NCBI GenBank assembly: GCA_038878695.1
Contig: JAVZVD010000002.1
Coordinates: 62,001 to 126,000 of the forward strand
Source of the DNA: Fervidicoccaceae archaeon
Lineage (GTDB): Archaea > Thermoproteota > Thermoprotei_A > Sulfolobales > Fervidicoccaceae
Length of the DNA stretch: 64,000 nucleotides
Direction: 5' to 3'
Part shown: positions 3,388 to 22,701 of the stretch, piece by piece
Layout: every line of letters begins with the position of its first letter
Numbering within the stretch: the first letter of the stretch is position 1
Position numbers and translations under genes: made by a program
Notes under the pieces: generated by a model
Databases searched by the model: none
Seen by the model: only the letters and a program-made list of their open reading frames with translations
What the model was told of the DNA's origin: nothing

Positions 3388-4752
3388 TTGCGTTGTGGCG
3401 CGCCCGCCGAGCGAGCGTCTCAGAGCGGGGTGGCGAGCCTGGCTCTCCCCATAGCCGTTGGCCTGGTCAACGAGTCAGTGCTCAGCCTCGTCGCTCTGGC
3501 GACGCTATCCCGCGTATCGGTCGCGGCAGTCGCGGCGGCGGGAGCGGTGTCGTATCTCTTCGCGCTCCTCGGCGCTCTCTCGCAGGTCTTCATGAATGGC
3601 GTCATGGTGCTCGCCTCGCAGGCTCTCGGGGCTCGCAGAGAGGGCGTGGCGAGCAGAGTGATCGGGGAGACCCTGAGCTTCTCCACGGCGGCGTCCCTCC
3701 TCGTGGTGTGCTCGTCTCCCCTATGGCTCGAGGGCTATCTGTGGGTCGTATCGAGAGGAAACAGCGAGGTTGTCGACGTCGGGCTGAGGTACGCGTCGGC
3801 GAGGATCCTCTCGGCACCGGCCACGATGGTCGGCTCCGTGTTGAGCGCGGCCTACAGGTGCGGCGGCAGGCCCTGGCCCGCGGCGCTGAGCTCCGTCGTC
3901 TCCGCTGCCGCGGGATCGATCCTGATCCCCGGCCTAGCGCTCGGGTGGGCCGGGCTCGAGCCCATGGGGGCGCTCGGCGCGGGCCTGGGAGCATCGCTCG
4001 CGAGCTACGTCGGTCTGGCCTCCTACGCTCTCTTCGAGCCGCCGATTCCGATCAGGCCCTCGATTAGGCCGGGCAGGCTAGCCCTCGCCGCGGTGGCGAC
4101 AGGATCTCCCCTCGCGGCCGAGAGGCTCGCGGCAAGCGCGGCTCAGAACGTCTATATCAATGCCGTGGCGCGGGGGGGCACCGAGGCTCTGGCGGCTCAC
4201 AACATAGGCGTGACCGTGGAGATGCTGATCATCCAGCCGAGCTTCGCCGTGGGCCTGGCGACGCTCATCGAGGCTGGGCGAGCGGTGGGAGCCGCGAGTC
4301 CCGAGAGCGCCTCGAGAGTCGTCAGAGAAGGGGCCAAGATCGGGGTCGCGTGGATGGGCGCGGCCGCAGCGCTCTTGGCGTCTCTCTCGCCTCTCGTCGG
4401 GGGGATCTTCGTCGATGACCCCCTCGTCGAGAGGCTCACGATGATCTATCTGCTAATGGCGGCTGCCAGCGAGGTCGGTCTCGGTCTCAGCTCCGCGATC
4501 TTCGGGGCGATCCGTGGAATGGGCAGAGTAGAGCTTCCCACTTTGATAACGATCGCGTCGGTGGTGCTATTGAGAGCTCTGCCTGCGCAGATCCTAGCAG
4601 CGAGCCACGGAGCTCCCGGGGCGTGGGCTACTCAGATAACGGACTGCTATGGGCGAGCTCTGCTCGGCTTAGCCGCCTGGAGGCTGCTGGGCACCGGGAG
4701 GCTCGCTAGGAAGCTGGTGGAGGGGCCGGGGACGCCTAGTCCACCGTCGTGA
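3388..4752 (+). CDS. MATE-family multidrug/Na+ antiporter
   Basis: 454 residues with about 12 membrane helices in two homologous halves, the layout of MATE exporters. Recognisable pieces are the N-terminal LALPIAVGLVNES helix, AAAGAVSYLFALLGALSQVF, a second-half AAHNIGVTVEMLIIQPSF segment and GAIRGMGRVELPTLI. MATE proteins export cationic compounds using Na+ or H+ gradients. The start is probably TTG at 3388; no in-frame ATG precedes the first helix. The 3' end overlaps the converging tldE gene by 17 bp. Confidence 0.85.
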   Translation: MRCGAPAERASQSGVASLALPIAVGLVNESVLSLVALATLSRVSVAAVAAAGAVSYLFALLGALSQVFMNGVMVLASQALGARREGVASRVIGETLSFSTAASLLVVCSSPLWLEGYLWVVSRGNSEVVDVGLRYASARILSAPATMVGSVLSAAYRCGGRPWPAALSSVVSAAAGSILIPGLALGWAGLEPMGALGAGLGASLASYVGLASYALFEPPIPIRPSIRPGRLALAAVATGSPLAAERLAASAAQNVYINAVARGGTEALAAHNIGVTVEMLIIQPSFAVGLATLIEAGRAVGAASPESASRVVREGAKIGVAWMGAAAALLASLSPLVGGIFVDDPLVERLTMIYLLMAAASEVGLGLSSAIFGAIRGMGRVELPTLITIASVVLLRALPAQILAASHGAPGAWATQITDCYGRALLGLAAWRLLGTGRLARKLVEGPGTPSPPS

Positions 4753-6076
4753 AGCCTACGTCCTCGACGAGCAGGTAGGGGCAGAGCGTCGGTATGTCGG
4801 CGTCCCACCACTCTATGGGCCACCGCTCAACCGTGGCGCCTCTTATCTTAGAGAGGAGACCTGGTAGCGTGTCAACGATCCTCGCCCTCTCGATCAATCC
4901 AGCGAGCTCGCCACTCTTCACGTATATCAGCGCGTCTCTCGTCACGGTGCTGAAGCTGCCCTCGATCGCGTTCTGGATCCTGGTGTACCAGTTGTTCGTC
5001 ACGATAAGCCCCTCGCGCATTTCCCTCACAGCCTCCTCGAGCTCCCAATCGCCGGGAGCCACCTCGAGGTTCCAAGGCCTCGGCTCGATCCAGCCGGCGT
5101 TCGCCGTCGACCTCGCTCCCCGCTTGGCCGCCGTCCTAAAGTTGTGCAACAGGCTCCTCAGGGTCCCTCTCTCAATGATCGGCTTATCGCGCGTGGCGAG
5201 CCCCTCGTCATCGAACGAGGCTGCGTTCGGAAGATCGGCGTTCCTCGGGGCATCGATGAGCGTGAACTCCTCGCTCGCCACGACGTCGCCCGGGCTTCGA
5301 TCAGCGAGAAAGCTGAAGCCGAGGTCGATCGCCAGAGCGCTCGCTGCCCCCGCCACGTAGTTGACGAGGTTCGCCACGACCATCGGAGACAGGAGCGCCG
5401 TCTTCCTGCCGGGCTCGACGCCGACGCGCGGTAGGGCGAGGCGCGAGAGCTCCAGAGCTCTCTCGAGCGATCTCTCGAGCAACTTCTCGTTCAGCTTGGT
5501 CGAGGTGAAGGCCCACTGCCCGCTGCACTTCTCCCCGAAGATCCTGAAGTAGCCGCCGAAGAACGTGCGGATATCCTCGCCCTCGAAGCCTCTCGAAGTG
5601 AGGAGGGCCCTCCTGACGATCCCGGCCTTCACCATGCCCGAGGCGCCGGACTCCCCGGCTCGCGCCGTCCCGAACACCAACTCGACGAGCTTCTTCGGCT
5701 CGCTCAGGACCTCCTCGACGCGGCCATCAAACGAGTCCCTCAGAGGCTCGTGGCGCTCAGGCTCCGGGAGCTCGACTCCGTAAAGTGACGGCTCCAGGAG
5801 CTCGATTTCTCTGGCCGTCTCCGAGGCCGCTCGCGCCACCTCCTCCGGGTCGGAGGAATCGACGAATAGCACAGCGAGCCTGCCGCTCCTTCCAACGTAG
5901 AGGCCAACCGAGGTCCTTCTCCAGCTCTGAGCCACGCTGGGCTCCCCATCATATAGCTTCACCATCAGGCCGTCGATCTCCAAGACTAAGACCGCAACCT
6001 CATCGGCCACTTCGCGCAGAGAGCTCAGAATCTTCTCGCCGAGCCGCAGCGGCTCGCTCAACGAGGCTTCACGCAA
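4736..6076 (-). CDS. TldE/PmbA-like subunit of TldD/E protease
   Basis: 446 residues of the TldD/PmbA family but without the HExxxH metal motif, so this is the non-catalytic TldE partner. Family features are an N-terminal domain of about 180 residues and a C-terminal beta-rich domain with FTLIDAPRNADLPN and a TNNWYTRIQNAIEG segment near residues 370-390. TldD/TldE heterodimers degrade unfolded peptides and mature some modified peptides. TTG start. The gene overlaps the end of tldD by 8 bp in the same direction, so the two form an operon and a complex is expected. Confidence 0.9.
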   Translation of the reverse strand: MREASLSEPLRLGEKILSSLREVADEVAVLVLEIDGLMVKLYDGEPSVAQSWRRTSVGLYVGRSGRLAVLFVDSSDPEEVARAASETAREIELLEPSLYGVELPEPERHEPLRDSFDGRVEEVLSEPKKLVELVFGTARAGESGASGMVKAGIVRRALLTSRGFEGEDIRTFFGGYFRIFGEKCSGQWAFTSTKLNEKLLERSLERALELSRLALPRVGVEPGRKTALLSPMVVANLVNYVAGAASALAIDLGFSFLADRSPGDVVASEEFTLIDAPRNADLPNAASFDDEGLATRDKPIIERGTLRSLLHNFRTAAKRGARSTANAGWIEPRPWNLEVAPGDWELEEAVREMREGLIVTNNWYTRIQNAIEGSFSTVTRDALIYVKSGELAGLIERARIVDTLPGLLSKIRGATVERWPIEWWDADIPTLCPYLLVEDVGFTTVD

Positions 6077-7496
6077 ATGCCCTCACCCTGACTCCTCTCA
6101 CTCTGGCGTGCGGTCCTCCGGCCCATATCGGGACGCCCTGACTCGGCTCGCCCTTCCCGCACACCCCGGCGTGGAACTCAAGCTCTCGGCCCAGGGCATC
6201 TATATTCGAGTAGAGCTCGGCCGTGGTGAGCTCCATAGCGACGTTCCTAAGGGGATGCAGCAGCTCGCCCCCCCTCACGTAGTAGGCCTCGAGGCCGACG
6301 TATCTCTGAGTCCACCTCCTGTCGTCTATGTTCCACTCCATGTAGCTCCTCACGTAGATCCCCTCCTTCAATCCCTCGAGTAGCTCCTCGAGCGAGTGGT
6401 CCCCCGGCTCCATGTAAGTGTTGGCCATCCTGATTATCGGCTCGCCGACGTGGCTCGAGCTCCTGGCCGACCCGTTGCTCCCCACGCCGAAGACCGACCC
6501 AGTCCACCTGTTGTGGAGGAGCTCCTCGATCACCCCCCTCCGCATCAAGTATCTCTTCCTCGCTGGCACGGTCTCATCATCGTAGAGATAGAACCCGTTG
6601 CTTCCGGGTATGGTTGGGTCATCGACTACGCTGACGATCTCGCCGCCGAGCCTCGTGCCAATCGCGTCTCTTCCGGCGTAGCTCCTACCTCCCTGCGCTG
6701 CCTCTCTCCCCAAGATCCTATCGGCCTCGAGAGGATGACCGCAGGACTCGTGGACCGCCAGACCCACAATCTCGCTCCCGAGAACAACGTCGAATTTGCC
6801 AGAGGGAGGAGACCTGCCCTCGACGAGCACTCTCTCCAGTCTAATCAGCTCGTCGCTCAGCCTCTCGCTCAGTCTCCACGAGTCGAGCAGCTCTGGACCC
6901 CCCGAGGCCGAGAGCTCGTACCATCTATTGAGAGCCCCCTTCTCCGACGAGAGCGCCAGATTGTAGAAGTAGGAGCTCCTGGGCGTGTAGGACCGCACCA
7001 TCCCCCCATCGCTGTTAACGATTAGTTTCTCCTCTACCCAAACGAGCACGTGCTGATATAGCACGCTGACCTTTACTCTCGAGGCAGAGCTCGAGACGCC
7101 GCTCCAGAGCTCCCTCGCGAGAGACGAGAGCTCTTCGCGAGAGACCGCGAGGGGGTCCTTCTTCGGCCTCACCGCGACGTCGGCTCTCCCCAGCCTCTCC
7201 CGCGAGAACTCGACGGGTCGTCTGACGTGCGCTGACAGCGCCCTGGCCGAGGAGTAGGCGGCCTCGGCCGCTCTCCTAGCCTCCTCTCTCGTCAGGCGGG
7301 AGGTCGACGTAAAGCTCAGGGCTCCGTCGACGATGACTCTGACGGCGAGCCCGAGAAATCTGCGAGCCTCGACTCCCACGAGTGACTCGTTCCTCGCGTG
7401 GAGCCCCGTTCCGACGATCGAGTGGACTCTGGCCTCCGCGTAATCCGCCCCGAGCTCGAGGGCTCTCTCCACGGCCAGCTCCGCTAGATCCTCCAA
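6069..7496 (-). CDS. tldD: TldD metalloprotease subunit
   Basis: 475 residues. The catalytic motif HESCGHPLEAD (HExxxH) lies near residue 254 and is followed by the conserved DDPTIPGSNGFYLYDDE segment, both typical of TldD. The protein is expected to form a cytoplasmic heterodimer with the TldE encoded next and to cleave small or unfolded peptides. TTG start, 79 bp from the divergent aRF1 gene. A third, more diverged TldD paralogue is present at 14661-15917. Confidence 0.93.
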   Translation of the reverse strand: MEDLAELAVERALELGADYAEARVHSIVGTGLHARNESLVGVEARRFLGLAVRVIVDGALSFTSTSRLTREEARRAAEAAYSSARALSAHVRRPVEFSRERLGRADVAVRPKKDPLAVSREELSSLARELWSGVSSSASRVKVSVLYQHVLVWVEEKLIVNSDGGMVRSYTPRSSYFYNLALSSEKGALNRWYELSASGGPELLDSWRLSERLSDELIRLERVLVEGRSPPSGKFDVVLGSEIVGLAVHESCGHPLEADRILGREAAQGGRSYAGRDAIGTRLGGEIVSVVDDPTIPGSNGFYLYDDETVPARKRYLMRRGVIEELLHNRWTGSVFGVGSNGSARSSSHVGEPIIRMANTYMEPGDHSLEELLEGLKEGIYVRSYMEWNIDDRRWTQRYVGLEAYYVRGGELLHPLRNVAMELTTAELYSNIDALGRELEFHAGVCGKGEPSQGVPIWAGGPHARVRGVRVRAFA

Positions 7497-8697: not shown

Positions 8698-8713
8698 GCG
8701 GGGACTCTCGAGC

Positions 8714-9655: not shown

Positions 9656-9704
9656 GGCTCACCAACCTCTAAGTAGAGCGGGATCGCAACCGCGATGCGA
9701 GATA

Positions 9705-9714
9705 GATTTAAAAG
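9705..9714 (-). promoter_or_regulatory. TATA element of tfb
   Basis: Minus-strand CTTTTAAATC lies about 50 bp upstream of the GTG start in a GC-rich spacer. Confidence 0.5.
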
Positions 9715-9769
9715 CGGCGTCGTGGCTCCTCGAATAAGCTTTTCGCGTCTTGACTTAAATTCATAATGT

Positions 9770-9800
9770 AAGTTTTTTATTTATAAAAATTCTATGATTT
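9770..9800 (-). terminator. AT-rich end of the aIF1 transcript
   Basis: Directly after the aIF1 stop codon comes a 30-bp A/T-dominated stretch with several runs of T on the coding strand, consistent with archaeal termination. Confidence 0.45.
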
Positions 9801-10139
9801 TCAGATAACAATGATGTTCTCCGGGGGGAAGCCCATCTCCTCCAGGATCTCGCGGACGGCCTGCCTGTGATCTCCCTGAAGCTCTATCCTCCCATCTTTA
9901 GCCGTTCCGCCGGTCGCTAGCCTAGACTTTAACTGAGAGGCGAGCTTCTTGAGGCTCAGCTCCCTCTCATCGAGGCCCTCGACGATGGTAACTTCTTTGC
10001 CAAACTTCCTCTTCTCGAGCCGAATCTTGATGATCTGCTGCTCTCGAGCTAGCTGCTCGCACAACTCCGGGGGAAGACCCGCGCATATCGCGCCGAGCTC
10101 GTCTCCGCTGCCCATTACCCTCTTTTGACCTCTCTCCAC
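9801..10139 (-). CDS. translation initiation factor aIF1 (SUI1)
   Basis: 112 residues of the SUI1 fold. Conserved pieces are [40 protein letters not shown] and IELQGDHRQ. aIF1 binds the small ribosomal subunit near the P site and controls start-codon fidelity. The first eight residues are non-conserved; the second methionine (MGSGDELG) could be the real start, giving 104 residues. Its promoter seems to lie in the 3' end of the upstream phosphatase gene (AAATAAATA near 10170). Confidence 0.93.
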
Positions 10140-10175
10140 GCCCGCTTGCTCAGTTTCTGTTATCGACTCGGATAT

Positions 10176-10874
10176 TTATTTGGCACGGTCCTCGCACTCG
10201 AGCGCTCCCCTCTCGTAACTGGACACTATATCGAGGATCTCCTCGGGCGAGCGAGCTCTCGCGCACACCTCCGCCTCGACCTGGTCGTCCCCGTAGAGTA
10301 TGGGGAGGCCGGCCACGGCGAACGCCTCTCTGTCCCACACGCTGTCTCCAACGAAAGCTAGCTCAGAGCGGTTAGCCCTCATCCTCTCGGCAACCTCCAA
10401 CAGGACCCTCCCCTTGCCGCCCGCCTCGACCCTCGGAATACCCCCCGGTACCAGGCGACCGCGCGAGTCGAAGACGAGCAGGCTGGAGTGCCACTCGTCG
10501 GCTTTGACTCTCTTGGCTATCTTCTCGACGAGGACGCTGACGCCGCAGCTCACTATGACGATCTTCCTCCCCTCAGATCTCAGCCTCTCGATAACGTCGA
10601 GGAAGCGTGGATCCACGTCGACCCTCTCGAAGACCTTCTCTAGGTCTCTCCTGCTCGCGGTCCCCCCGCTCGCTTTGAGCCAGAGCAGCGTGGATAAATA
10701 GAGCCAGTCGTAGTAATCTATCTCGCCTCTCCGAAACATGAGAGCGAGCTCCTCTGCCTCTCTCAGCACTCCGAACCGAGCGTGGACTAGGTCCCAGCTG
10801 TTCTTGTGAGGCACCAAGACTCCGTCCATGTCGAAGGCGACGATCTTCACTTTTCTCGGCGTCGTTGAGCTCAA
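10176..10874 (-). CDS. HAD-superfamily phosphatase, phosphoserine-phosphatase-like
   Basis: 232 residues with all HAD motifs: nucleophile DMDGVL near residue 15, motif II VSCGVS, a conserved lysine in the PRVEAGGKGRV segment, and motif IV GDSVWDREAF. The cap insertion after motif I is of the SerB-like helical type. A role in serine synthesis is possible but the substrate is not shown by sequence. TTG start; a TATA-like ggctataagc sits about 25-30 bp upstream, so the mRNA may be leaderless. Divergent from lysY. Confidence 0.8.
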   Translation of the reverse strand: MSSTTPRKVKIVAFDMDGVLVPHKNSWDLVHARFGVLREAEELALMFRRGEIDYYDWLYLSTLLWLKASGGTASRRDLEKVFERVDVDPRFLDVIERLRSEGRKIVIVSCGVSVLVEKIAKRVKADEWHSSLLVFDSRGRLVPGGIPRVEAGGKGRVLLEVAERMRANRSELAFVGDSVWDREAFAVAGLPILYGDDQVEAEVCARARSPEEILDIVSSYERGALECEDRAK

Positions 10875-10895
10875 CGCGCGGCTCTGCTCCCTTCA

Positions 10896-10903
10896 GCTTA
10901 TAG
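10896..10903 (-). promoter_or_regulatory. TATA element of the HAD phosphatase gene
   Basis: Minus-strand CTATAAGC centred about 26 bp before the TTG start codon fits a leaderless archaeal promoter. Confidence 0.45.
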
Positions 10904-10913
10904 CCCTCCGCCG

Positions 10914-11016
10914 CGCTAATAAGCGCTGAATCCGCAATGACGAGCTTGCCCCACGTCGGGGCCGGGCGACCTAGCGGATGAGTGCGCGGCGGCTGTCTGA
11001 GCGGCGGTGATGCTCC
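10914..11016 (+). promoter_or_regulatory. promoter and leader of the lysYZ-lysM operon
   Basis: GCTAATAAGC (10915-10924) is a likely TATA box, which would start transcription near 10945 and leave a leader of about 70 nt, long for this genome. The leader region contains a GCCCC-ACGTC-GGGGC hairpin (about 10949-10963) and a 14-codon ATG open frame beginning at 10938. GGTGAT just before the TTG of lysY is a good Shine-Dalgarno site. Confidence 0.4.
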
Positions 11017-12069
11017 TTGCGCGCGGCGGCCGTATTGGGAGCCTCCGGGTACGCGGGCGGGGAGCTCCTGAGGCTCCTCGCTCTCCACCCCGAGATCGAG
11101 GTGAAGAAGGTCTACTCGAGGACCTACAGCGATAAGCCGGTCTATTATGCTCACCCCCACCTGAAGGGCTTCTACGCCAATCTCAGGTTCGAGAACCCGA
11201 GCGGGGGGTCACTCCCAGATGTCGACGTGGTCTTCAACGCCTTGCCGCACGGCGAGGGCATACACATCACGGCCAAGTTCGCCGAGGTCGGCACAATAGT
11301 CGTCGACCTCAGCGCGGATTACAGGCTCAAGGACCCCGAGAAATATAAGGTCTGGTACGGCTTCGAGCACCCGTACCCCGACCTGCTTTCCAAGTTCGTC
11401 TACGGGCTACCCGAGCTGAATCGAGAGGAACTCCGAGGGGCTAAGCTCATAGCATCGCCCGGCTGCAACTCCACGGCGGCTCTGCTGGCCGCGGCCCCCC
11501 TCATCAAAGAGGGGATCGCGGACCTAAGCACTCTGATTATAGATGTCAAGGTGGGGAGCAGCGAGGCGGGCAGGAGGCCCTACGAGGGGAGCCACCACCC
11601 GGAGAGGGAGGGCGCCATAAGACCGTACGAGGCCTGGGGGCATAGACACCTCGAGGAGTTCCTCCAAGAGGCGTCGAAGCTCGCCGGAGGGAAGAGGATG
11701 AGAGCGTCGCTGATTCCGCACGCCGTCTCCAGCGTGCGGGGGGCGCTCGCGAGCGTCCACTCCTGGCTCGCGGTAGACGTAGACGAGAAGGAGCTGTGGA
11801 AAGCCTACGCCAGATTCTACCGGGGATCCCCGTTCATCAGAATAACCTATGCCACCCCTCATAAGCTACCCGACGCTAAGAACGTCGTGGGCAGCAACTT
11901 CGCCGACGTGGGCTTCGCCTTGGAGAGTTACACCTCGAGGGTCTCGGGATTCGCCGCCATAGACAACTTAGTCAAGGGGGCCTCGGGTCAGGCCATTCAG
12001 GCTCTCAACGTGGCTCTGGGCCTCGACGAGACCGCGGGGCTCGTGCTGCCCCCGGTGAGGCCTGCTTAG
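11017..12069 (+). CDS. lysY: LysW-aminoadipate/LysW-glutamyl phosphate reductase (ArgC family)
   Basis: 350 residues. N-terminal NAD(P)-binding GASGYAGGELLR, catalytic cysteine in IASPGCNSTAAL near residue 147, and the conserved HPHLKGF and SHHPERE segments. It reduces the carrier-bound acyl phosphate to the semialdehyde, in lysine synthesis by the aminoadipate route and probably also in arginine synthesis. TTG start with GGTGAT Shine-Dalgarno. lysZ follows after 11 bp, and lysM overlaps lysZ, so this is an operon. Confidence 0.93.
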   Translation: MRAAAVLGASGYAGGELLRLLALHPEIEVKKVYSRTYSDKPVYYAHPHLKGFYANLRFENPSGGSLPDVDVVFNALPHGEGIHITAKFAEVGTIVVDLSADYRLKDPEKYKVWYGFEHPYPDLLSKFVYGLPELNREELRGAKLIASPGCNSTAALLAAAPLIKEGIADLSTLIIDVKVGSSEAGRRPYEGSHHPEREGAIRPYEAWGHRHLEEFLQEASKLAGGKRMRASLIPHAVSSVRGALASVHSWLAVDVDEKELWKAYARFYRGSPFIRITYATPHKLPDAKNVVGSNFADVGFALESYTSRVSGFAAIDNLVKGASGQAIQALNVALGLDETAGLVLPPVRPA

Positions 12070-12080
12070 GTGAGCTCAGC

Positions 12081-12893
12081 GTGACGATAGTAGTTAAAGT
12101 CGGCGGGAGGGTCCTGAAGAGCAACTTCGAGAGACTCTTAGACTCTCTGGCCGCAGCGTGGAAATCTGGGACCAGGCTTGTCTTCGTTCACGGCGGGGGA
12201 GACCAGGTCACCGAGTTCTGCCAGAAGCTGGGCATTCAACCCAGATTCCTGGTCAGTCCCAGCGGCATTAGGAGTAGGTACACAAGCTGGGAAGAGCTCG
12301 AAGTCTACCTCATGGTCATGGCCGGCCTCGTCAACAAGAGGCTAGTGGCCGGCTTGCTGGCACGCGGGGTCAAGAGCGTGGGGCTGAGCGGGCTCGACGG
12401 AGCGCTCGTGATTGCCGAGAGGAAGAAAAAGCTGATAGCGGTCGACGAGAGGGGCAGGAAGATGTTGGTTGAGGGAGGCTACACGGGCAAGATAACGAGC
12501 GCGGACGCCTCGCTCATCGAGCGCCTCCTGGAGCTCGGCCACGTCCCCGTGATCGCGCCAATAGCCTACGGAGACGGCGTCCCCCTCAACGTGGACGGAG
12601 ACCAGATGGCGGCCAGGCTCGCCGAGGCTCTCAGGACCGAGGCTCTCGTGTTGCTCACAGATGTGCCGGGAGTATTCGTGAACGGCTCCCTCGTCGAGAG
12701 GCTCTCGCCCTCCGAGGCCTCGCTGCTCGCCGAACGAGTGGGGCCTGGCATGAATAGGAAGCTCGCTCTGGCGGCCGAAGCCGTCTCGCGCGGCGTGGGC
12801 CGAGCCGTCATAGCCAGCGGCCTCACGGAGGACCCCATCGGGGAGGCCTTGAGAGGAGGTGGCACGGTGATTGTCGGAACGGAGCGACTCTAG
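12081..12893 (+). CDS. lysZ: LysW-aminoadipate/glutamate kinase (ArgB family)
   Basis: 270 residues of the amino-acid kinase fold: VVKVGGRVLK at the N-terminus, FVHGGGDQV, SGLDGALV and the C-terminal VLLTDVPGVF. The enzyme phosphorylates the gamma/delta carboxylate of glutamate or aminoadipate attached to LysW. Second gene of the lysYZ-lysM operon, with GTG start. The last 23 bp overlap the regulator gene, implying coupled translation. Confidence 0.93.
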   Translation: MTIVVKVGGRVLKSNFERLLDSLAAAWKSGTRLVFVHGGGDQVTEFCQKLGIQPRFLVSPSGIRSRYTSWEELEVYLMVMAGLVNKRLVAGLLARGVKSVGLSGLDGALVIAERKKKLIAVDERGRKMLVEGGYTGKITSADASLIERLLELGHVPVIAPIAYGDGVPLNVDGDQMAARLAEALRTEALVLLTDVPGVFVNGSLVERLSPSEASLLAERVGPGMNRKLALAAEAVSRGVGRAVIASGLTEDPIGEALRGGGTVIVGTERL

Positions 12894-13314
12894 CCCCCTG
12901 AGGCTCGACGAGAAGGACCTGGAGCTGTTGGAACTCCTCAAGAGGAACTCGAGGATCTCTTACAGAGAGCTCGCCGAGAGGCTCGGCGTCAGCAAGACCG
13001 CCGTGAAGAAGAGGGTCGATAAGCTCGTCGGCTCGGGCATCATCAAGAGATTCACCATAGAGTACGAGATCGCTCAAAAGGTCAAGGCGGTAGTGCTACT
13101 CAAGGTCCTCCCAGGCTACGACGTCCCCGCCGTCGCTAAGAAGATCGCCGAGCTGGACATGGCAGATCAAGTCTACGAGGTGGCCGGAGAGTACGACGTG
13201 GTGGTCGTGGCATCGACGCCGAACATTCAGACAATAAATAAGCTCGTGGACTCCCTCAGAAGGACCGAGGGAGTGGCCTCGACTAATACTCTCATCGTTT
13301 TGAGAGCTTGGTGA
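12871..13314 (+). CDS. lysM: LysM-like Lrp/AsnC family regulator
   Basis: 147 residues: an N-terminal helix-turn-helix (ISYRELAERLGVSKTAVKKRV, about residues 28-48) and a C-terminal RAM ligand-binding domain with VYEVAGEYDVVVV. Lrp-type proteins act as dimers or octamers whose DNA binding responds to amino acids; LysM of Sulfolobus controls the lys operon in response to lysine. Its position as last gene of lysYZ, overlapping lysZ, supports that role here. TTG start after a GGTGA sequence. Convergent with the MFS gene. Confidence 0.88.
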   Translation: MSERSDSSPLRLDEKDLELLELLKRNSRISYRELAERLGVSKTAVKKRVDKLVGSGIIKRFTIEYEIAQKVKAVVLLKVLPGYDVPAVAKKIAELDMADQVYEVAGEYDVVVVASTPNIQTINKLVDSLRRTEGVASTNTLIVLRAW

Positions 13315-13340
13315 GGCCCGGCTCTCTCGCGCCGCGACTC

Positions 13341-14498
13341 TCACCGCTCATCGCTCCTCGCGAGCCAGAGGAGAGAGGCCAGAGAGAGGGCCTCGACTAA
13401 CGCGACATAGAGGAGCAGCGAGGATTCGCGACTCAGGAGGGAAGAGAAGACGAAGCCCCCGGCTGACCACGAAGCCCCCGTCATTAGGCCGAAGGTGCCA
13501 TAGGCCATCGATCTGTCGCGCGGCTCCACGAGATCCGCGACGGCCGCTCTCATGTTGGTTTCGTAGAGACCCATCACTACCCCCCAGAGGGCTCCGACGA
13601 CGTAGAGAGAAGCCGAGATCTCCGAGCGAAACATGAAGAGGGGGATCAGAGTGACGAGCAAGGGAGCAGGGGTGAGGCTCTTCAGGCCGAGCTTATCGTA
13701 CATAATGCCAGCCGGCAGAGCTACTAGCGCGTCGACCGCCATGGCCACGGAGTACGCGAGGGCTATATCAGACGCAGAGGCAAGTTTCTCCGAGGCTATG
13801 TACATCGACGCGATGGACCAGTGAATATAGCCAGCCAGAAGCAGAGAGGACGACGCCGTGTAGAGCCAGAACCTCCTCGGGAGGCCTCTGAGGCCAGCGG
13901 ACGGCGCGGACCCGCGATCCACAGACTTTATCTTGGGATACATCAGTGCGGCCGCGGCGACGAGTCCCACTGACGCCGCGGCCGGCAGCGAGAGGGACAA
14001 AAACGCCAGGGAGTAGCCGCCCGCGTTCAAAGCCCGAGAGACCGCCAGGGGACCGGCGAAGGCTCCCACCTGATCTAATACCTCGTGGATCCCAAAGCCC
14101 TTGCCCCGCCCAATGCTCGAGGAGACCTCGGCCAGTATCGTCTCTCGAGCCGGGGTTCTGAGCCCCTTGCCCACTCTCTCGGCCAGGTACAACGCCACGG
14201 CGATTTCCCACTGACCGGCGAAAGCCAAGAGAGGCACGACGACGAGGTTGACGGCGTAGCCCGCTATCACGATTGCCCAGAGCACAGTCGATGACATGAA
14301 TGCCGCGGCTACGTAGCCTCCCAAAAATCTCATCGCGTAGCTCAGGAGCTCTCCGCTCCCGACGATAGCTGCCATCAATGGGGCGGCGCCGAGGCTCTCG
14401 AGAAACGGCCCGCTGACGGACCTAGCCCCCTCGTAGGCCACGTCGGCCGTTAGCGAGACCAGGCCCAGGAGCAGGAGCACAGCCAGCTCTCTCCTCAT
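13341..14498 (-). CDS. MFS transporter
   Basis: 385 residues with about 11-12 membrane helices in two halves. The loop between helices 2 and 3 is replaced by GGYVAAAF, and AERVGKGLRTPARE resembles the signature of small MFS permeases found beside metal or drug resistance genes. The substrate cannot be told. GTG or ATG start near 14498. A T-rich TATA-like element (TTTTTAG on the minus strand, about 14540-14546) lies upstream. Divergent from the TldD paralogue. Confidence 0.85.
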   Translation of the reverse strand: MRRELAVLLLLGLVSLTADVAYEGARSVSGPFLESLGAAPLMAAIVGSGELLSYAMRFLGGYVAAAFMSSTVLWAIVIAGYAVNLVVVPLLAFAGQWEIAVALYLAERVGKGLRTPARETILAEVSSSIGRGKGFGIHEVLDQVGAFAGPLAVSRALNAGGYSLAFLSLSLPAAASVGLVAAAALMYPKIKSVDRGSAPSAGLRGLPRRFWLYTASSSLLLAGYIHWSIASMYIASEKLASASDIALAYSVAMAVDALVALPAGIMYDKLGLKSLTPAPLLVTLIPLFMFRSEISASLYVVGALWGVVMGLYETNMRAAVADLVEPRDRSMAYGTFGLMTGASWSAGGFVFSSLLSRESSLLLYVALVEALSLASLLWLARSDER

Positions 14499-14660
14499 CG
14501 AGAGCGGCGACCTCCGCGTTCGCGCGAAACGCTTCCCCGACTAAAAACCTGCGTGAGCCTGCCGGTCGAGCAGCGAGCTTCCCGGAGCTTCGAGTCCCGC
14601 GGCTAGCTTTTTTGGGTCAATTCGAGCCTACGAACTCTCGGGGCTTGGGGATCGCCGCGC

Positions 14661-15917
14661 ATGTACAGAGACCGCGTGGAGTACTCGGAGAGCGTTCTCG
14701 AGATCGCGTGGAGAAGGGGAGACGTCGAGGTCAACGAGTCTAGATCGTCGGCTAGAGCCGTGAGGCTTGCCACAAATAGAGGCTGGGTCATCTGCTCGAC
14801 GACGAGACCCGTGGCCTGGGACGTCCTAGAAGAAGAGGCCCTCCGTCTAGCGGGGAGCGAGAGAGCGGAGAGCTCGGCCGAGTTGGCCGAAGCCTCCCTC
14901 TACGTGGGCAGAGTGATGCTCGGCGAGAGCTCCGCCGATCCCCTGGGCGAGGGCATGAGAGCGGTCGACCTCGCCAGAGCTCTCTTGGAGGAGAAGGGCC
15001 TCACCGGCGAGGTTGTGCTAGTGTTCTCGGAGACCGAGAGGAGGTTGGAGCACCCGTCGGGCTCTGCCTCGGAGAGAAAGACCTTGAGCGAGCTCTACGT
15101 GTACGCCGACGCCAGGCTCGAGGGGTCTAGGGCCGTGGGCTCAGCTCACGCGGCGGTGCTGGGGCCTCCCTCGAAGATCTCCCCCAAGAGCGTGGAGTCT
15201 CTCGTCGAGAAGGCGGCGAGGAGGGCTCTCTGGGGCCTGAGAGCCAAGAAGCTGAGCCCCCTCGAGCGAGGCCCCAAGACCGTGCTATTGATGGGGGAAG
15301 CGAGTGCGGCCTTCTTCCACGAGCTCTCTCACCTCCTCGAGGCGGACGTCCCCGAGCATATCGCGCTCGGCACGCTCGTCTCGAGCAAGAGTCTGACCGT
15401 GTACGATGACCCCTTCGACCCCGAGAGCCCAGCCTCCGTGTTCTTCGACGACGAGGCCGTGTCGGCGAGGAAGAGGACGTTGGTAGAGGATGGAGTAGCG
15501 GTTGGCCTCCTCCACACGAGAGAGACGGCCTCTCTCCACGGCGACGCGCCGGGCTCAGCTCGAGGCCTCTTCCATAGGCCTAAAGCCATGCAATCGACGA
15601 TAGTAGTCAGCTCCGGGGACAACTGGAGGGAGAGCGAGATAGTCGAGGAGACCAGGAGCGGGCTGCTGATCGATGGAGTCGTGGAGGCCGAGCTCCGCGG
15701 AGGCACGGTAAGGCTCGTCCCGGAGGAGGCGTGGATCGTGGCGAAGGGGGAGGTGAGAGAGCCGATCAAGCTGGAGGAGCTCAAGCTCCCCCTGCTCCAC
15801 TCTCTCACGAGGATAGACGCGGTGGGGAGGGCCGCTTATCTGAGGGCCTCCTACGAGAAGAAGCATTTAGTGGCCGAGAGGGCTCCGTGGGTGAGGACCG
15901 TAGCCTACGTGGCCTGA
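14661..15917 (+). CDS. diverged TldD-family protein with HExxH motif
   Basis: 418 residues, homologous to TldD over the C-terminal half: FFHELSHLLEAD (about residues 221-232) aligns with the TldD motif HESCGHPLEAD but is one residue shorter, giving HExxH. The following VYDDPFDPESPASVFFDDE matches the TldD DDP...DDE segment. The N-terminal domain is short and divergent. It is probably a metalloprotease or a regulatory paralogue; no TldE-like partner is adjacent, so it may pair with itself or with the distant TldE. ATG start about 45 bp after a T-rich promoter element. The end converges on hom with a 13-bp overlap. Confidence 0.85.
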   Translation: MYRDRVEYSESVLEIAWRRGDVEVNESRSSARAVRLATNRGWVICSTTRPVAWDVLEEEALRLAGSERAESSAELAEASLYVGRVMLGESSADPLGEGMRAVDLARALLEEKGLTGEVVLVFSETERRLEHPSGSASERKTLSELYVYADARLEGSRAVGSAHAAVLGPPSKISPKSVESLVEKAARRALWGLRAKKLSPLERGPKTVLLMGEASAAFFHELSHLLEADVPEHIALGTLVSSKSLTVYDDPFDPESPASVFFDDEAVSARKRTLVEDGVAVGLLHTRETASLHGDAPGSARGLFHRPKAMQSTIVVSSGDNWRESEIVEETRSGLLIDGVVEAELRGGTVRLVPEEAWIVAKGEVREPIKLEELKLPLLHSLTRIDAVGRAAYLRASYEKKHLVAERAPWVRTVAYVA

Positions 15918-16912
15918 CCCTGCTCCAGTGCCCTCAGGTAGTCTAGAACGTCGGTCATCATCACCTTCGCCGTCCTCCAAGCGGGACCGGCGGGGCCCTC
16001 TAGGTAAATTATCTCGCCCTCCACCTCGATCGCCACCGCGTTCCTGGCGCCAGAGAGACGAGACATAGGGTCAGCGGCAGGCAGCTCTAAGGGGGTCACC
16101 TCGGCTCTCTCCCCCTCGACGTCGATGGAGGCCACGTATTTGACCCTCGCCCCCCGCCTGAGCGCGGCTCTCACCTCATCTTCGTCGACCGAGCTCAGAG
16201 GAGTCCTCCGCACTTCTCTCATCGTCATGCGCAGACCCAGCTCGCATCCTACTATGGCGATCTTCGCAGCCGGGTCGAGGCCCTCCAGGTCGATGGCCGG
16301 GTCTGGCTCGGTCAGGCCCTCCTGAGCCGCCCTGCTTACTGCGTCACCGTAGCTGAGGCCGCTCTCTATGAGTGTGAGCACGTAGTTGGTCGTCGCATTG
16401 AGCACGCCCAGCACGCGAGATACCTCCCTCCCTCTGAGCCCTCTCACGGCGTCGAGCACGGGCGTCCCGGCGGCGACCGTAGCTCTGTAGCCTACAAAGA
16501 GCCCCCTCCTCTCCGCTTCCCTTAGGAGACCCCAATAGTCTAGGGCGAGGCCCGTCTTGTCAGCCGTGACGACGCTTACTCCGAGCTCCACGAGGCCGCG
16601 ATAGATGGAGAGGTTCGGCTCACCCGTCTCGTAGGAGGGGGGCAGAGCCACGAGAGCCAAGTCGACGTTGGCCTCTTCCACCGCGTCCAGCGCGCTCACC
16701 CCCGGGGCGAAGGACGGGTGAGCGTCGAGCCTCAGCCCTCGCTCTGAGAGCTCGAGCAATGACCTCAGGTCTCCCTCGCTCTGGACCATTACAGCCCCCC
16801 TCGACGAGGAGACCGCGGCCACCTCGACGCGGCCTCGGAAGCGCCGCTCTAGCTCGAGCAGAGCTCTCCGCCCCACTCCTCCGAAGCCGATGAGCGCGAC
16901 TCTACTGACCAA
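15905..16912 (-). CDS. hom: homoserine dehydrogenase
   Basis: 335 residues without an aspartokinase or ACT domain. N-terminal Rossmann motif GFGGVGRRAL, central VVTADKTGLALDYW, and GYRATVAAGTPVLDAV with the conserved catalytic region; NATTNYVLT and GLTEPDPAIDLEGLD are typical of the family. The enzyme reduces aspartate semialdehyde to homoserine for threonine and methionine. Monocistronic on the minus strand. thrC is encoded about 38 kb further along. Confidence 0.93.
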   Translation of the reverse strand: MVSRVALIGFGGVGRRALLELERRFRGRVEVAAVSSSRGAVMVQSEGDLRSLLELSERGLRLDAHPSFAPGVSALDAVEEANVDLALVALPPSYETGEPNLSIYRGLVELGVSVVTADKTGLALDYWGLLREAERRGLFVGYRATVAAGTPVLDAVRGLRGREVSRVLGVLNATTNYVLTLIESGLSYGDAVSRAAQEGLTEPDPAIDLEGLDPAAKIAIVGCELGLRMTMREVRRTPLSSVDEDEVRAALRRGARVKYVASIDVEGERAEVTPLELPAADPMSRLSGARNAVAIEVEGEIIYLEGPAGPAWRTAKVMMTDVLDYLRALEQGQAT

Positions 16913-17009
16913 GGCGCAGAGTTACCTCGGTTGAGGCTCTCGGCTGAGAGCATTATATTGGCGGCGAGCTCGAGCGTAGGAGCGCGCCTAGGCGGAGAGG
17001 CGTGGCTCC

Positions 17010-17609
17010 GTGGAGGACCAACGCAGCGCGAGCTCCGACGAGTTCTCCGAGATAAGGAGAGCGCTCGCGGAGCTCGCGGGGAGCTCGTGGCCTCTGATCT
17101 CGAGACACGCGCTCTCGAGACTCAGGAGAGCTCGCCTGCTCCACGCGAGAGCCGCCTGGAGAGTAGAGGTCATCGAGGGGGAGCTCAGGAGCTCTCTGCT
17201 CTCTCAGCGTCTCCTCGGGGCGAGGAGGAGAAGAGAGGAGGTCCTCAGATTCGTCAGGATCTCGAGCCGTAGATTGAAATGCACGTGTGAAGACGCGATT
17301 TTCACGGCGTCCATAGCTGAGAGAAGGCTCCCTCGAGCGGCCGAGGCGGCGGGCCTCTCGATAGAGATCCCGAGCGGAGCGCTAGCTGGTTACTGCCTCT
17401 GCAAACACGTGATCTCGGAGTTGGCCAGAGCGCTGAGGCGCGGCCTGGTGAAGCTCGAGGGCGAGACGCTCGAGACGCTCGCCGTGGCTCTCCTAGCACT
17501 CTCGCTCAGATGCGTCGGCGGGGAGGAGGTCGCGAGCGGCATGAGGGGTCTTCTGTCGAGAGGGCTGAGAACGCTGGTCTCGAGAGGGGAGGTCAGGCTC
17601 CTCAATTGA
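17010..17609 (+). CDS. SWIM zinc-finger protein
   Basis: 199 residues. The central part has the SWIM pattern CxC...CxH: KCTCED near residue 91 and YCLCKHVISELA near residue 129, followed by helices. Rest is Arg/Leu-rich and helical with no recognised domain. SWIM domains bind nucleic acid or protein; crenarchaeal SWIM proteins have been linked to RadA paralogues in recombination, but no RadA-like gene is near. GTG start, with a TATA element (ATTATATTG, about 16951-16959) upstream. Convergent with the thioredoxin gene, overlap 8 bp. Confidence 0.75.
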   Translation: MEDQRSASSDEFSEIRRALAELAGSSWPLISRHALSRLRRARLLHARAAWRVEVIEGELRSSLLSQRLLGARRRREEVLRFVRISSRRLKCTCEDAIFTASIAERRLPRAAEAAGLSIEIPSGALAGYCLCKHVISELARALRRGLVKLEGETLETLAVALLALSLRCVGGEEVASGMRGLLSRGLRTLVSRGEVRLLN

Positions 17610-18093
17610 TGCAGCCCACGGTCTTCAGGTGCTCTCGCACTACGTGAGAGAGAGAGTCCTCGTCGACGGGCCCGGGGATCCTCATCGCCATCCTCCCGTC
17701 GACGAACAAGACCGTCTGAGGAACCGATAACACCATCATCTGTTGCGCGATCAGGGGGGCCTCGGCGGCGTTCACCCTGACGAAGGCCGCCCTGCCCTTA
17801 TATTCCGAAGCCACTCTCGCGAAGACCGGCTCGAAGAAGTAACAGTAGGGGCAGTCGGGCGTGTAGAACGTGACGACAACTACTCTGCATCCCCTCAGGA
17901 TCCTCCTGAGCTCGCTGGAGCGGGTCGCCTCTATGACGGTCGGCCCGAGAAGCCCCGGAGAGCAGCACTGCTCCTCCAGCTCCTCGAGCTCTCTCGGGGG
18001 GCCCGAGAAGGTCTCGCGCGCGAGCCTCTCGAGCAGCTCCTCGAGCTCCCGATCTACGTGCTCGCTCAACCCGCACACCAGCGCTAATGTCAC
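17602..18093 (-). CDS. thioredoxin-fold protein with CPYC active site
   Basis: 163 residues. The C-terminal 110 are a thioredoxin fold with FYTPDCPYCYFFEP (active site CPYC) and the cis-proline loop SVPQTVLF. The first 50 residues are Glu/Leu-rich and helical with a CC pair. No signal peptide, so a cytoplasmic disulphide reductase is likely. CPYC is the glutaredoxin-type active site. Neighbours give no specific pathway. Confidence 0.82.
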   Translation of the reverse strand: MTLALVCGLSEHVDRELEELLERLARETFSGPPRELEELEEQCCSPGLLGPTVIEATRSSELRRILRGCRVVVVTFYTPDCPYCYFFEPVFARVASEYKGRAAFVRVNAAEAPLIAQQMMVLSVPQTVLFVDGRMAMRIPGPVDEDSLSHVVREHLKTVGCIN

Positions 18094-18108
18094 GTAGGGG
18101 CTAAGCGA

Positions 18109-18117
18109 GTTATAAGG
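18109..18117 (+). promoter_or_regulatory. TATA element of the tRNA-binding protein gene
   Basis: GTTATAAGG lies about 40 bp upstream of the ATG; GGTGG at 18140 is a plausible ribosome site. Confidence 0.45.
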
Positions 18118-18151
18118 CTCTCGGGCTCACCCTCTCCCCGGTGGCTCGATA

Positions 18152-18496
18152 ATGAGCAGCGAAATAGATATCGAGGCGTTCTCGAAGATAGACCTGCGCG
18201 TGGGGCTTGTAGAGAGCGCCGAGAGAGTCGAGGGGACCAAGCTCATCAGGCTCACGGTGTACCTCGGCGAGGAGCTCGGGAGGAGGCAGGTCGTGGCTGG
18301 GATAGGAGAGTATTACTCGCCCGAGCAACTCGTTGGCAGAAAGGTGATAGTCGTGGCTAACTTGAGACCCAAGAAAATACGCGGGCTCGTCAGCCAGGGC
18401 ATGATATTGGCCGCGGGGTGTGGCCAAGGCGAGAGGCCCGTGGTGCTCGTGCCAGAGAACGAGGCCGCGGCCAGGCCGGGCTCCAAGGTCTGTTGA
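18152..18496 (+). CDS. tRNA-binding (EMAP/CsaA-like) protein, methionyl-tRNA synthetase beta-like
   Basis: 114 residues of a single OB-fold tRNA-binding domain: FSKIDLRVGLVESAERVEG, VAGIGEYYSPEQLVGR and ANLRPKKIRGLVSQGMILAA. This matches the domain fused to the C-terminus of many methionyl-tRNA synthetases or made separately in archaea. It is expected to bind tRNA and raise its affinity for the synthetase. ATG start. No synthetase gene is adjacent. Confidence 0.9.
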   Translation: MSSEIDIEAFSKIDLRVGLVESAERVEGTKLIRLTVYLGEELGRRQVVAGIGEYYSPEQLVGRKVIVVANLRPKKIRGLVSQGMILAAGCGQGERPVVLVPENEAAARPGSKVC

Positions 18497-18949
18497 GCTC
18501 TCGCTGGCATCTCCTCCGCGACTCGCGCCTACGCCCTCGGGTTCCCGCCTCGGCGCGGAAATCGTCGAGACCTCGTCGCCGCTAACGATGAAAAACACTT
18601 CACAACCCCTGCTCCCGGATCTCGGCGACTTTATCGCCCCGGGCCTCAACTCGCCCTCTATCCCTTCCTCAGCGGAGCGGCGGCTCTCATCCGAAGCCGC
18701 GCAGACGACAGCAAACCCTTCGCGCGGGCCTCCTCGTCGTATCCACCGAGAAGCTATCACTGCGCGTCGAGGGGCTTCGAGCCTCACGCCATAGCCAACT
18801 CTCTTGATCGCTTCGACCGCCTCTCGGCTTCAGCCTCGAGGGGTCGCAGCGAACTCCGTCCTCCCCGGTCGCGGGCTCACCGAGGCCTCGGCTCCCGCCT
18901 TGCGTAGGCTCAGCCTCGCGCGAGGGCGCACGACGCGTGGTACGTTCCC
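18497..18949. other. non-coding or decayed stretch
   Basis: No intact gene seen. On the minus strand short coding-like pieces appear in different frames (for example EAVEAIKRVGYGVRLEA), broken by stops within tens of codons. It reads as an extension of the decayed segment that follows, but I cannot name the ancestor. Confidence 0.4.
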
Positions 18950-19200
18950 TTAGCTCAATGAATCTCCCCTCGACCTCAGCAGCATCAGTGCCTCGCTGCC
19001 CTTTCTCATCGCGTACTTCTCCGGGCTCTCCTCTCAAAATTCTCGTTTGTAAACGCTCGAGCAAAAGCGGTGGACTCCGCCTCGTACACGGTGTTGTGCG
19101 GAGCCCTCGAGGCGTCGGCCTCCATGCCGCAGAAAGGATCGATCTCGACCAAGATCTTTCCTCTCTCGAAGAGCTTCAGCGAGCTTTCATATCTCTGTTA
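18950..19200 (-). pseudogene. decayed gene of unknown family
   Basis: The minus strand has two coding-like segments that join after one frameshift: FERGKILVEIDPFCGMEAD ... VYEAESTAFARAFTNENFE, then EKYAMRKGSEALMLLRSRG to a TAA at 18952. No family was recognised. It lies directly downstream of the dead CPBP protease on the same strand. Confidence 0.4.
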
Positions 19201-19213
19201 TCGCGGTCGAGCC

Positions 19214-19823
19214 TCAGCTCAGCAGAGAACCCGTGAGAGCTGCGTAGAGGACGACGTAGAGCCGGAGAGCGTAGGAGAGCGAACGAGGCCCCTATTCCTC
19301 TCCTGCGCGCGAGCAGCCCGAGGATCAGGCCCGCGACCAAAGCCGCCAGCACCAACGTGACGAGGCCCGAGACGAGGTGGACGAGGGCATAGGGGAGCAG
19401 GGAGATCCATCGCGGCGATCCGAGGCGAGAGACGATGCGCTTCCTCTGGAGAATCCCCCGCTAATAGATTTCCTCAGCGACCCCCACCACCGGGGCGAGG
19501 ATCATCTTCGCCGCCGAGCCGGCGAATCTGCCGTAGACCGACTCCGCTTGCCGCCCGAGACCGAGCTCTCTCAACATGAGCGCCCCATCAACGAAGGCCG
19601 AATGGAGGATGGCAGACGATGCGAGGGCCTCCAGCGCGTCGCGAGCGTCGAGTCTGAGCGCGGCAAGCGAGCCGCAGATAGCGGGTAGAGCAGGACCCCC
19701 GCGGCGCAGAGGATTGACGAGGCCGCGGCCATGGATGCGAGCACGCCGCATTCTCCGCGGAAGGCCCAATACAATAAGGGCCAGGAGGCGATCAGGAGCG
19801 ACGGAGCCCGAACCGTCTCTCAA
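19214..19823 (-). pseudogene. decayed CPBP-family intramembrane protease
   Basis: Pieces in alternating frames give hydrophobic helices, then VVGVAEEIY, an in-frame TAG, RGILQRKRI and a helix with LLPYALVHLV. This is the EExxxRG...FxxxH layout of CPBP (CAAX protease/bacteriocin-processing) enzymes. At least two frameshifts precede the active site and one follows it, before a last segment ending in LTGSLLS. The UAG falls inside the catalytic motif. The intact CPBP gene at 28.4 kb is a different member of the same family. Confidence 0.6.
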
Positions 19824-20866
19824 CTTACCACGACCTCCAGCGCCCCCCTATCGGCCGCCTCTCGGATCTCCCTCGCGATCCTCCTGCCGACGCTCATGGG
19901 CTCGTCCCAGTAGAGCCACGAGTAGGGGCTTCCGGCGACGTAGAGATTGGTCCCGGCTACGATCCTGCCCGAGAACTCGAAGACAACGATTTCGAGCTCG
20001 TCAGTTATCACGGACTCGAGGCAGAAGGGCCCCACGATCCCGGAGGGATCGAGAGCCCTCGTGGCCTCGACGAATCTTCTCCCATACTCCACAACGATCG
20101 GCAGCAAGCTCTCTCTCAGGGTGAGAGGCACGTTTCCGACCACGACGAACGAGGGCTCGATGCCCTCGGCGAGAGAGGGAGGAAGCCTCCTCAGCCCATC
20201 GAGATTGGCTTCGTACCTTATATCGGCTCCCGTGAGCTCGAGCCTGCCCCTGACGACGCTTCTGAAGAAGTGGAAGAAGGCGGGGACCCCCACCACGTAC
20301 TCCTGGATGAGGGCCTCCGAGGCGTCCCTCAGCAGCCCCTCCTCGACCGCTCTCCTCAGCCCCTCCTCGACCTCGGCTCTCGATCTGGCCAAGAAGTATC
20401 CTCTCCCGCCCTTGGCGCCGGGCATCTTGACTATCGCTGGCCTCTCCAACTCCTCGCCCATCTCGTAGATCCTCGGGATCGGTATGCCGGCCGAACTGAG
20501 GAGCTCCATCTTCCTCCTCTGCTCGGCCTCGACTCTGAAGAGGGGCCTCAGCCCGAATAGCGGGACCTCGAGCTGCTCGGCGCAGCTGAGGCCCACGTAC
20601 TCGACGAAGCTGCCGTGAGGTATCACGATCGCGTTGAGCTCTCTGAGCCTCCTCTCCACCTCCTCGTCGCAGAGAGAGCTCCAGGAGCTCACCTCCACGA
20701 ACTCGTCGATCAAGTGGCCGAACTCCGCGTAGAAGCTCAGCCTATCGCGGGGCCCCACCACGATCGTCCCGAGGCCCTCCTTCTTCGCTCCGTGGGCTAT
20801 CTGGAGGGCCGTGTGGCTCGCTAGAGTGGCCACGGAGAGCCTCTTCGCGTCGTACCTCGAGACCAT
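19820..20866 (-). CDS. PurP-family formate-dependent AICAR formylase, paralogue 1
   Basis: 348 residues from the ATG at 20866. PurP hallmarks: N-terminal LATLASHTALQIAHGAK, ATP-grasp GRGYFLAR, the KMPGAKGGRG loop and C-terminal EFSGRIVAGTNLYVAGSPYSWL. PurP makes formyl-AICAR from AICAR, formate and ATP in archaeal purine synthesis; many archaea carry two paralogues and only one is the proven enzyme. An upstream in-frame start at 20986 would add 40 unconserved residues and run into the promoter region, so 20866 is preferred. The divergent partner is a second PurP-like gene. Confidence 0.85.
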   Translation of the reverse strand: MVSRYDAKRLSVATLASHTALQIAHGAKKEGLGTIVVGPRDRLSFYAEFGHLIDEFVEVSSWSSLCDEEVERRLRELNAIVIPHGSFVEYVGLSCAEQLEVPLFGLRPLFRVEAEQRRKMELLSSAGIPIPRIYEMGEELERPAIVKMPGAKGGRGYFLARSRAEVEEGLRRAVEEGLLRDASEALIQEYVVGVPAFFHFFRSVVRGRLELTGADIRYEANLDGLRRLPPSLAEGIEPSFVVVGNVPLTLRESLLPIVVEYGRRFVEATRALDPSGIVGPFCLESVITDELEIVVFEFSGRIVAGTNLYVAGSPYSWLYWDEPMSVGRRIAREIREAADRGALEVVVS

Positions 20867-20879
20867 TTCCGAGACCTCT

Positions 20880-22079: not shown

Positions 22080-22222
22080 GCGAAGACGAGGAGAGGAGGA
22101 AGAGGTACAAAGTCGGTCACGGCCCTCCTCTCGAGGAGGGGAGGCTGCCGGAGCCCGAGCCGATGAGTCCTCTGAGGTCTCTCAAGAGACTGGCGAGGAG
22201 ACTGCTTGAGGGGCTCTGGTGA
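22076..22222 (+). CDS. small basic protein coupled to purP2
   Basis: A 48-residue reading frame starting at TTG, which overlaps the TGA of purP2 as TTGA. It is charged at the N-terminus (SEDEERRKRYKVGHG), has a Pro/Glu stretch in the middle and an amphipathic Arg/Leu-rich C-terminus. No family recognised. The exact stop-start overlap and same strand make translation plausible; a chance frame cannot be excluded. Confidence 0.45.
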   Translation: MSEDEERRKRYKVGHGPPLEEGRLPEPEPMSPLRSLKRLARRLLEGLW

Positions 22223-22240
22223 GACTGCTCGAGCGTTCGC

Positions 22241-22627: not shown

Positions 22628-22661
22628 GCTCTCGCGCGACCTCTCAGTCCGCTCGGAGGTG

Positions 22662-22675
22662 CATTTTTAAATATT
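22662..22675 (-). promoter_or_regulatory. TATA element of the CxxC protein gene
   Basis: A 14-bp all-A/T run 35-48 bp upstream of the ATG at 22627, in GC-rich surroundings. Confidence 0.55.
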
Positions 22676-22701
22676 TCGCCGTGCTCGGGACGCTCCGAGG
22701 G

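Follow-up and report, generated by a model that had tools for sequence, protein, structure and literature searches.

A solitary TldD-fold protein of Thermoproteota with a predicted gluzincin-like HExxH+Glu metal site

The window, that is, the whole 64,000-nt stretch of DNA from a heat-loving Fervidicoccaceae archaeon that was analysed, carries, besides a copy of the widespread peptidase TldD, a gene (Table 1) whose product we interpret, with a probability of roughly two thirds, as a solitary TldD-fold zinc peptidase with a metal site rebuilt in a gluzincin-like way, HExxH plus Glu. Directly supported parts of this explanation are the sequence, the clade, the association of character states, the predicted fold, and purifying selection; zinc binding, the role of Glu399 as a ligand, and activity are predictions. 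In the proposed mechanism, H220 and H224 of the HExxH motif would be the histidine ligands, with the catalytic E221 on the same helix, and Glu399 on the clamp hairpin would replace the cysteine ligand of TldD, yielding a His-His-Glu site as in thermolysin-type enzymes (gluzincins). E221 would activate the zinc-bound water for promoted-water hydrolysis of peptides, the same chemistry as in TldD. The substrates are probably unfolded peptides, and the protein may act as a homodimer or as a partner to the cell's TldE.

Table 1. Positions in the window of the studied gene, its main elements, and the canonical TldD/TldE genes
Feature	Position	Strand	Basis
Whole gene, Glu-type TldD-like protein, 418 aa	14661..15917	+	ATG-to-stop ORF, relatives, AF2 model, TldD fold
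Central helix with the metal motif, residues 212-225	15294..15335	+	DSSP on the model
HExxH, H220-E-L-S-H224, with the two His predicted to bind zinc and the catalytic Glu221	15318..15332	+	conservation
E227-A-D229, counterpart of E. coli TldD E270/D272	15339..15347	+	sequence; roles from the accessible text of PMC5810440
DDE 263-265, conserved, structural	15447..15455	+	D263 and E265 in 7/7 TldE rows
C-terminal beta hairpin 387-417, shortened counterpart of the TldD clamp	15819..15911	+	DSSP on the model; clamp as defined in the accessible text of PMC5810440
R395, conserved	15843..15845	+	present in 50 of 54 HExxH Glu-type rows that cover this position
E399, predicted to be the third ligand of the metal, in alignment with the CGK Cys	15855..15857	+	conservation, alignments
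E406, another invariant Glu specific to the clade and an alternative ligand	15876..15878	+	54/54 HExxH rows with the column
Canonical TldD (HESCGH, CGK)	6069..7496	-	ORF, profile matches
Canonical TldE, no metal motif	4736..6076	-	ORF, profile matches

The product, which contains AAFFHELSHLLEADVPEH, does not stem from a chance reading frame, since related genomes carry its full-length relatives (31–57% identity), dN/dS values are low, and H220, E221, and H224 are invariant. These three residues, as well as E399 and E406, are the same in 29/29 diverse relatives; H220, E221, and H224 are also found in 57/57 HExxH rows, this class being itself set by the motif. The C-terminal domain PF19289 is matched at 89.6 bits (cut-off 22), and it is matched by all 29 members of alignment A2, the alignment of 29 relatives used as the AlphaFold2 input. 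For the N-terminal domains PF01523 and PF19290 no profile match is observed in this protein; PF01523 is weakly matched by three of the 29 A2 members, and each of the two domains, by four of seven HExxxH+Glu relatives. Pfam finds PF19289 alone because the N-terminal half is divergent and begins at the equivalent of E. coli TldD residue 34. The protein scores 64.3 bits with NCBIfam NF040952 (cut-off 635), and the window's own canonical TldD is likewise below the cut-off, with 208 bits.

The AlphaFold2 model of the 418-aa protein has pLDDT 95.3 and pTM 0.91. All 16 Foldseek matches with E-values up to 0.001 are TldD/TldE chains (TMq 0.85 for E. coli TldD, 5nj5_A), and VIA superposes model residues 1–418 on residues 34–478 of E. 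coli TldD with Z 38.8 and 2.6 A over 404 aligned residues, with no fold other than TldD/TldE at Z 5 or above among the families listed there. Judging from the model, the product is a TldD-fold protein (TldD itself presumably corresponding to COG0312).

The earlier note described the gene as a third TldD-family paralogue with a shortened motif and no adjoining TldE, and all of this holds. Exactly three PF19289 proteins are present in the genome (1.11 Mb, about 98% complete), namely, this paralogue, TldD, and TldE; reading of the ORFs gives HELSH-LLEAD here and HESCGH-PLEAD in the window's TldD, the distance from H to LEAD being one residue shorter; and each of 41 loci holds exactly one ORF of the TldD/E family. 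The loci span 6.7–19 kb each, some of them representing the same place from two collections, and the locus of the window's genome covers approximately window positions 8000–23000, with the TldD/TldE pair lying outside. With PF01523 taken as a marker of canonical TldD/TldE, the carriers also have canonical proteins of the family, as the note had proposed to check (51 of 53 genomes by hand count, the exceptions being G005, 61% complete, and G130). We rejected this co-occurrence as evidence for partnership: TldD/E is near-ubiquitous, with PF01523 in 201 of the order's 214 genomes, and hence co-occurrence proves no partnership.

Gene neighborhood was considered as a clue to the substrate and rejected as well, as no neighbor recurs beyond one genus, barring common or mixed clusters, e.g., an ABC-type one, observed in 9 of 41 loci. 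In one genus (L047, L048/L109, L051, and L110) the Glu-type gene is adjoined by a gene that we take, from its sequence, to encode a MoaA-like radical SAM protein. Elsewhere in the window, two visibly similar proteins are encoded head to head at 19820–20986 (−) and 20811–22079 (+), with overlapping predicted 5' ends, and look like a divergent paralogous pair; a short ORF at 1620–2057 (−) with two CxxCH haem-type motifs is possibly a part of a multihaem cytochrome.

The Glu-type gene occurs in Thermoproteota, the phylum covered by our profile searches. Seventy-five of 214 genomes of the window's order match the 15-row profile at 1e-30, and by hand these were assigned to 53 genomes with the Glu-type gene (full-length or fragment), 21 with a short motif-less protein in family f11, which we take to be Sulfolobaceae, and one with a canonical TldD (G125). 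Beyond the order, there are four further carriers in the class (G214, G216, G217, and G218), and the gene is found in other classes of the phylum as well; named carriers include genomes of Pyrodictiaceae, Ignisphaera, and Desulfurococcales. A second phylum search, with a profile of HExxxH+Glu proteins, yielded no Glu-type gene in a new genome among the best 30 loci, five of which were of the Cys type. When 84,980 species genomes were scanned with a pattern, 22 loci were confirmed, all titled as Thermoproteota archaea.

According to the accessible text of PMC5810440, E. coli TldD binds its metal through the two His of HExxxH (H262 and H267) together with C454 of the clamp, which is a hairpin insertion absent from TldE; K456 bridges E270 and D272. 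The same text states that the extra residue of HExxxH distorts the helix, that in a superposition of the site on that of thermolysin C454 takes the position of the thermolysin Glu, and that Asp can substitute for Cys and would be more thermolysin-like. In the window protein, this zinc-binding Cys (motif CGK) is gone. When the whole family is aligned by MAFFT, the invariant E399 (motif x-E-K) falls into the column of the Cys, with the equivalent of G455 missing and K400 at the position of K456, and E399 is also placed on the Cys by hhalign of the Glu-type profile with 15 Cys-type TldDs. A small first alignment had Y398 under the Cys, one residue off, and therefore the register of E399 is taken from the wider alignments rather than from structure; between the HExxxH+Glu and Cys-type profiles, the short clamp stretch is not clearly aligned. 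The Cys is retained in 19/19 Cys-type TldDs (18/18 with HExxxH and one with HExxH). At the E399 column, Glu is present in 54/54 HExxH Glu-type rows covering it (three of 57 being cut short) and in 7/7 HExxxH Glu-type rows, and the 19 motif-less Glu-type rows have 13 Glu, 3 Asp, and 3 other residues.

The larger change, overlooked in the earlier note, is the loss of the third-ligand Cys, with an invariant Glu at the same or the adjoining position. Loss of other metal ligands had been named there as an argument against its idea; every member has indeed lost the Cys, but by exchange for another residue. The note was right about the conservation of the DDP...DDE region and wrong about its role in metal binding: D263 and E265 are kept in 7/7 inactive TldE rows, and, DDE being largely retained in TldE, we ruled out this region as a source of ligands. 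The E227-A-D229 element is varied in a part of the Glu-type clade. In the model, HExxH lies on helix 212–225, as in gluzincins. A fragment model of residues 1–400, without the second strand of the hairpin, did not form the latter and was excluded from the fold search. The protein lacks two tested marks of canonical TldD, HExxxH and the Cys ligand in CGK; it has the metal motif HELSH and so does not qualify as TldE, whose mark is the lack of a metal motif.

For the history of the site we collected 113 family rows that score 60 bits or more and are no shorter than 300 aa, dereplicated to 109: 57 HExxH Glu, 7 HExxxH Glu, 19 motif-less Glu, 18 HExxxH Cys, one HExxH Cys (L172), and 7 TldE; an eighth HExxxH Glu-type relative is a 208-residue fragment, L161 in G437. 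The tree of 105 rows (four short ones dropped) was built by a short search without the motif and clamp columns, with SH-aLRT supports only, and contains 54 HExxH+Glu, 7 HExxxH+Glu, 17 HExxxH+Cys, one HExxH+Cys, and 26 motif-less rows. All 80 rows of the Glu type fall into a single clade (support 100), and the 18 of the Cys type, into another (support 89). The third residue changes once on the tree; the spacing changes about four times, one of these within Cys-type TldD. The subclade holding the window's order comprises 59 rows (support 98), and 43 of its 43 motif-bearing rows have HExxH, with all HExxxH+Glu rows falling outside. The HExxH homologues, which the earlier note proposed to check for a clade, thus cluster strongly, but spacing does not define the group, because of the four or so changes on the tree and the eight HExxxH+Glu relatives; rather, the clade is defined by the loss of Cys and by the invariant Glu that stands at this position or beside it. 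The exception within the Cys type, L172 (G412), combines CGK with HEMGH and adjoins a TldE-like ORF, at 4143 (−) and 5517 (−) in reverse-strand offsets; it is an independent contraction without the switch to Glu.

The existence of HExxxH+Glu members makes it probable that the Cys-to-Glu switch came before the contraction. Bacterial TldD is known in its Cys form, and so the simplest order, which we consider likely, begins with Cys to Glu and continues with HExxxH to HExxH; one helix residue would have been lost after the ligand was replaced. A fuller scenario, in which a Cys-ligated HExxxH fold was converted stepwise to a self-sufficient His-His-Glu HExxH enzyme via a dipeptidyl peptidase III-like HExxxH+Glu stage, with the Sulfolobaceae pseudoenzyme arising later, we offer only tentatively.

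Motif-less copies are also conserved. In nine close pairs with HExxH kept in both members (one of which, L007, is cut short before E399), dN/dS is 0.06–0.23; it is 0.18 in L054/L090, a pair with the motif lost from one copy, and 0.08 in L097/L099, both motif-less, the sole measurable Sulfolobaceae pair, and two further pairs are saturated. It appears, then, that genes of the active-looking form and of the motif-less form alike are being maintained, and, given purifying selection on the motif-less copies, a part of the function may be independent of catalysis. Family f11 (L095–L105, L020, L025, L029, and L146) has a short Glu-type-derived paralogue of about 330–390 aa without HExxH and with D-E-x-H in the clamp, present in 21 f11 genomes by hand count, a putative pseudoenzyme worth its own study. 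In one Glu-type clade, L054 (HEISH), L090 (HEISN, E399 replaced by Lys), and L093 (HHLSH) represent stages of motif loss, and this is a natural decay series.

The window protein shares with TldD of the E. coli TldD/TldE heterodimer (5nj5) the full-length fold, the position of the metal helix, the catalytic Glu, the DDE element, and the clamp hairpin with Lys, and differs in HExxH instead of HExxxH, Glu for the Cys ligand, a shorter clamp, the absence of the N-terminal 33 residues, and no adjacent TldE. With TldE/PmbA the fold is common, but TldE has no metal motif, and the window protein has a complete HExxH. The predicted likeness to gluzincins of clan MA (thermolysin) consists in HExxH on a helix and a later Glu, here from a hairpin 175 residues downstream. 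In dipeptidyl peptidase III, which has a fold different from that of TldD, the third ligand is Glu, resembling the HExxxH+Glu relatives, whereas the window protein has HExxH. The accessible text of PMC5810440 notes that the TldD fold is unrelated to thermolysin and that HExxxH is common to dipeptidyl peptidase III and TldD. BipI is also of the TldD type with no TldE gene alongside, but is an enzyme of a bacterial biosynthetic cluster; in the accessible text on BipI, HExxH is written for TldD in general (PMC12707348).

A zinc peptidase with E406, or water only, as the third ligand and with a structural E399 is an unlikely alternative, although E406 is invariant in active forms, is not a conserved residue in Cys-type rows, and is lost in 15 of 19 motif-less rows (retained in four, compared to 13 for E399, most of the 19 representing one Sulfolobaceae lineage). 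It is E399, not E406, that is aligned with the Cys ligand by both MAFFT and hhalign, and in L054/L090 E399 is lost along with the second His while E406 stays; moreover, by the hairpin register derived from DSSP (turn 400–401), the cross-strand partner of R395 would be E406, suggesting a salt bridge. Mere drift of spacing, with HExxH and HExxxH interchangeable and no functional change, would agree with the repeated spacing changes, including the one with Cys retained, but leaves unexplained the concerted, invariant Cys-to-Glu change and the shortened clamp; since the tree data do not reject a single contraction among the Glu-type rows (p-AU 0.189), to-and-fro drift is not required, and we regard this reading as very unlikely.

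Equally improbable seems a mainly non-catalytic scaffold or TldE-like partner with a decaying site: all 13 Sulfolobaceae tree rows and six others (L014, L090, L093, L169, L170, and L171) lack HExxH, and such copies are still conserved where measured, but 61 of the 80 Glu-type rows in the tree retain an intact motif, with invariant E221 and E399. Compatible with the preferred reading, and itself doubtful, is the possibility that the protein serves the cell's TldE as a substitute for its catalytic subunit and is not a self-sufficient homodimer. E. coli TldD needs TldE, by the accessible text of PMC5810440, and TldD/E-type proteins accompany the gene in nearly all carriers, which says little given their ubiquity; against this stand the solitary position of the gene in all 41 loci and BipI, which is active alone, as described in the accessible text of PMC12707348.

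The usual sorting of zinc peptidase sites relies on spacing and the third ligand as though neither could change. In the present case, a single fold and a single tree hold Cys/HExxxH, Glu/HExxxH, and Glu/HExxH states along with decayed forms, and therefore the order and the chemical effect of the changes are testable on small, probably heat-stable proteins. For annotation, x-E-K in place of C-G-K is a mark separating the Glu type from canonical TldD. In archaea, the TldD/E system gains a third arm that has apparently escaped study, as in the open-licence PMC literature we found no description of an HExxH or Glu-type archaeal TldD clade. If the stepwise conversion is true, it would be a case of convergent evolution of a thermolysin-type site with an intermediate stage preserved; the parts predicted to hold the metal, swapped and shortened toward the thermolysin layout, would make active-site rebuilding readable within one fold.
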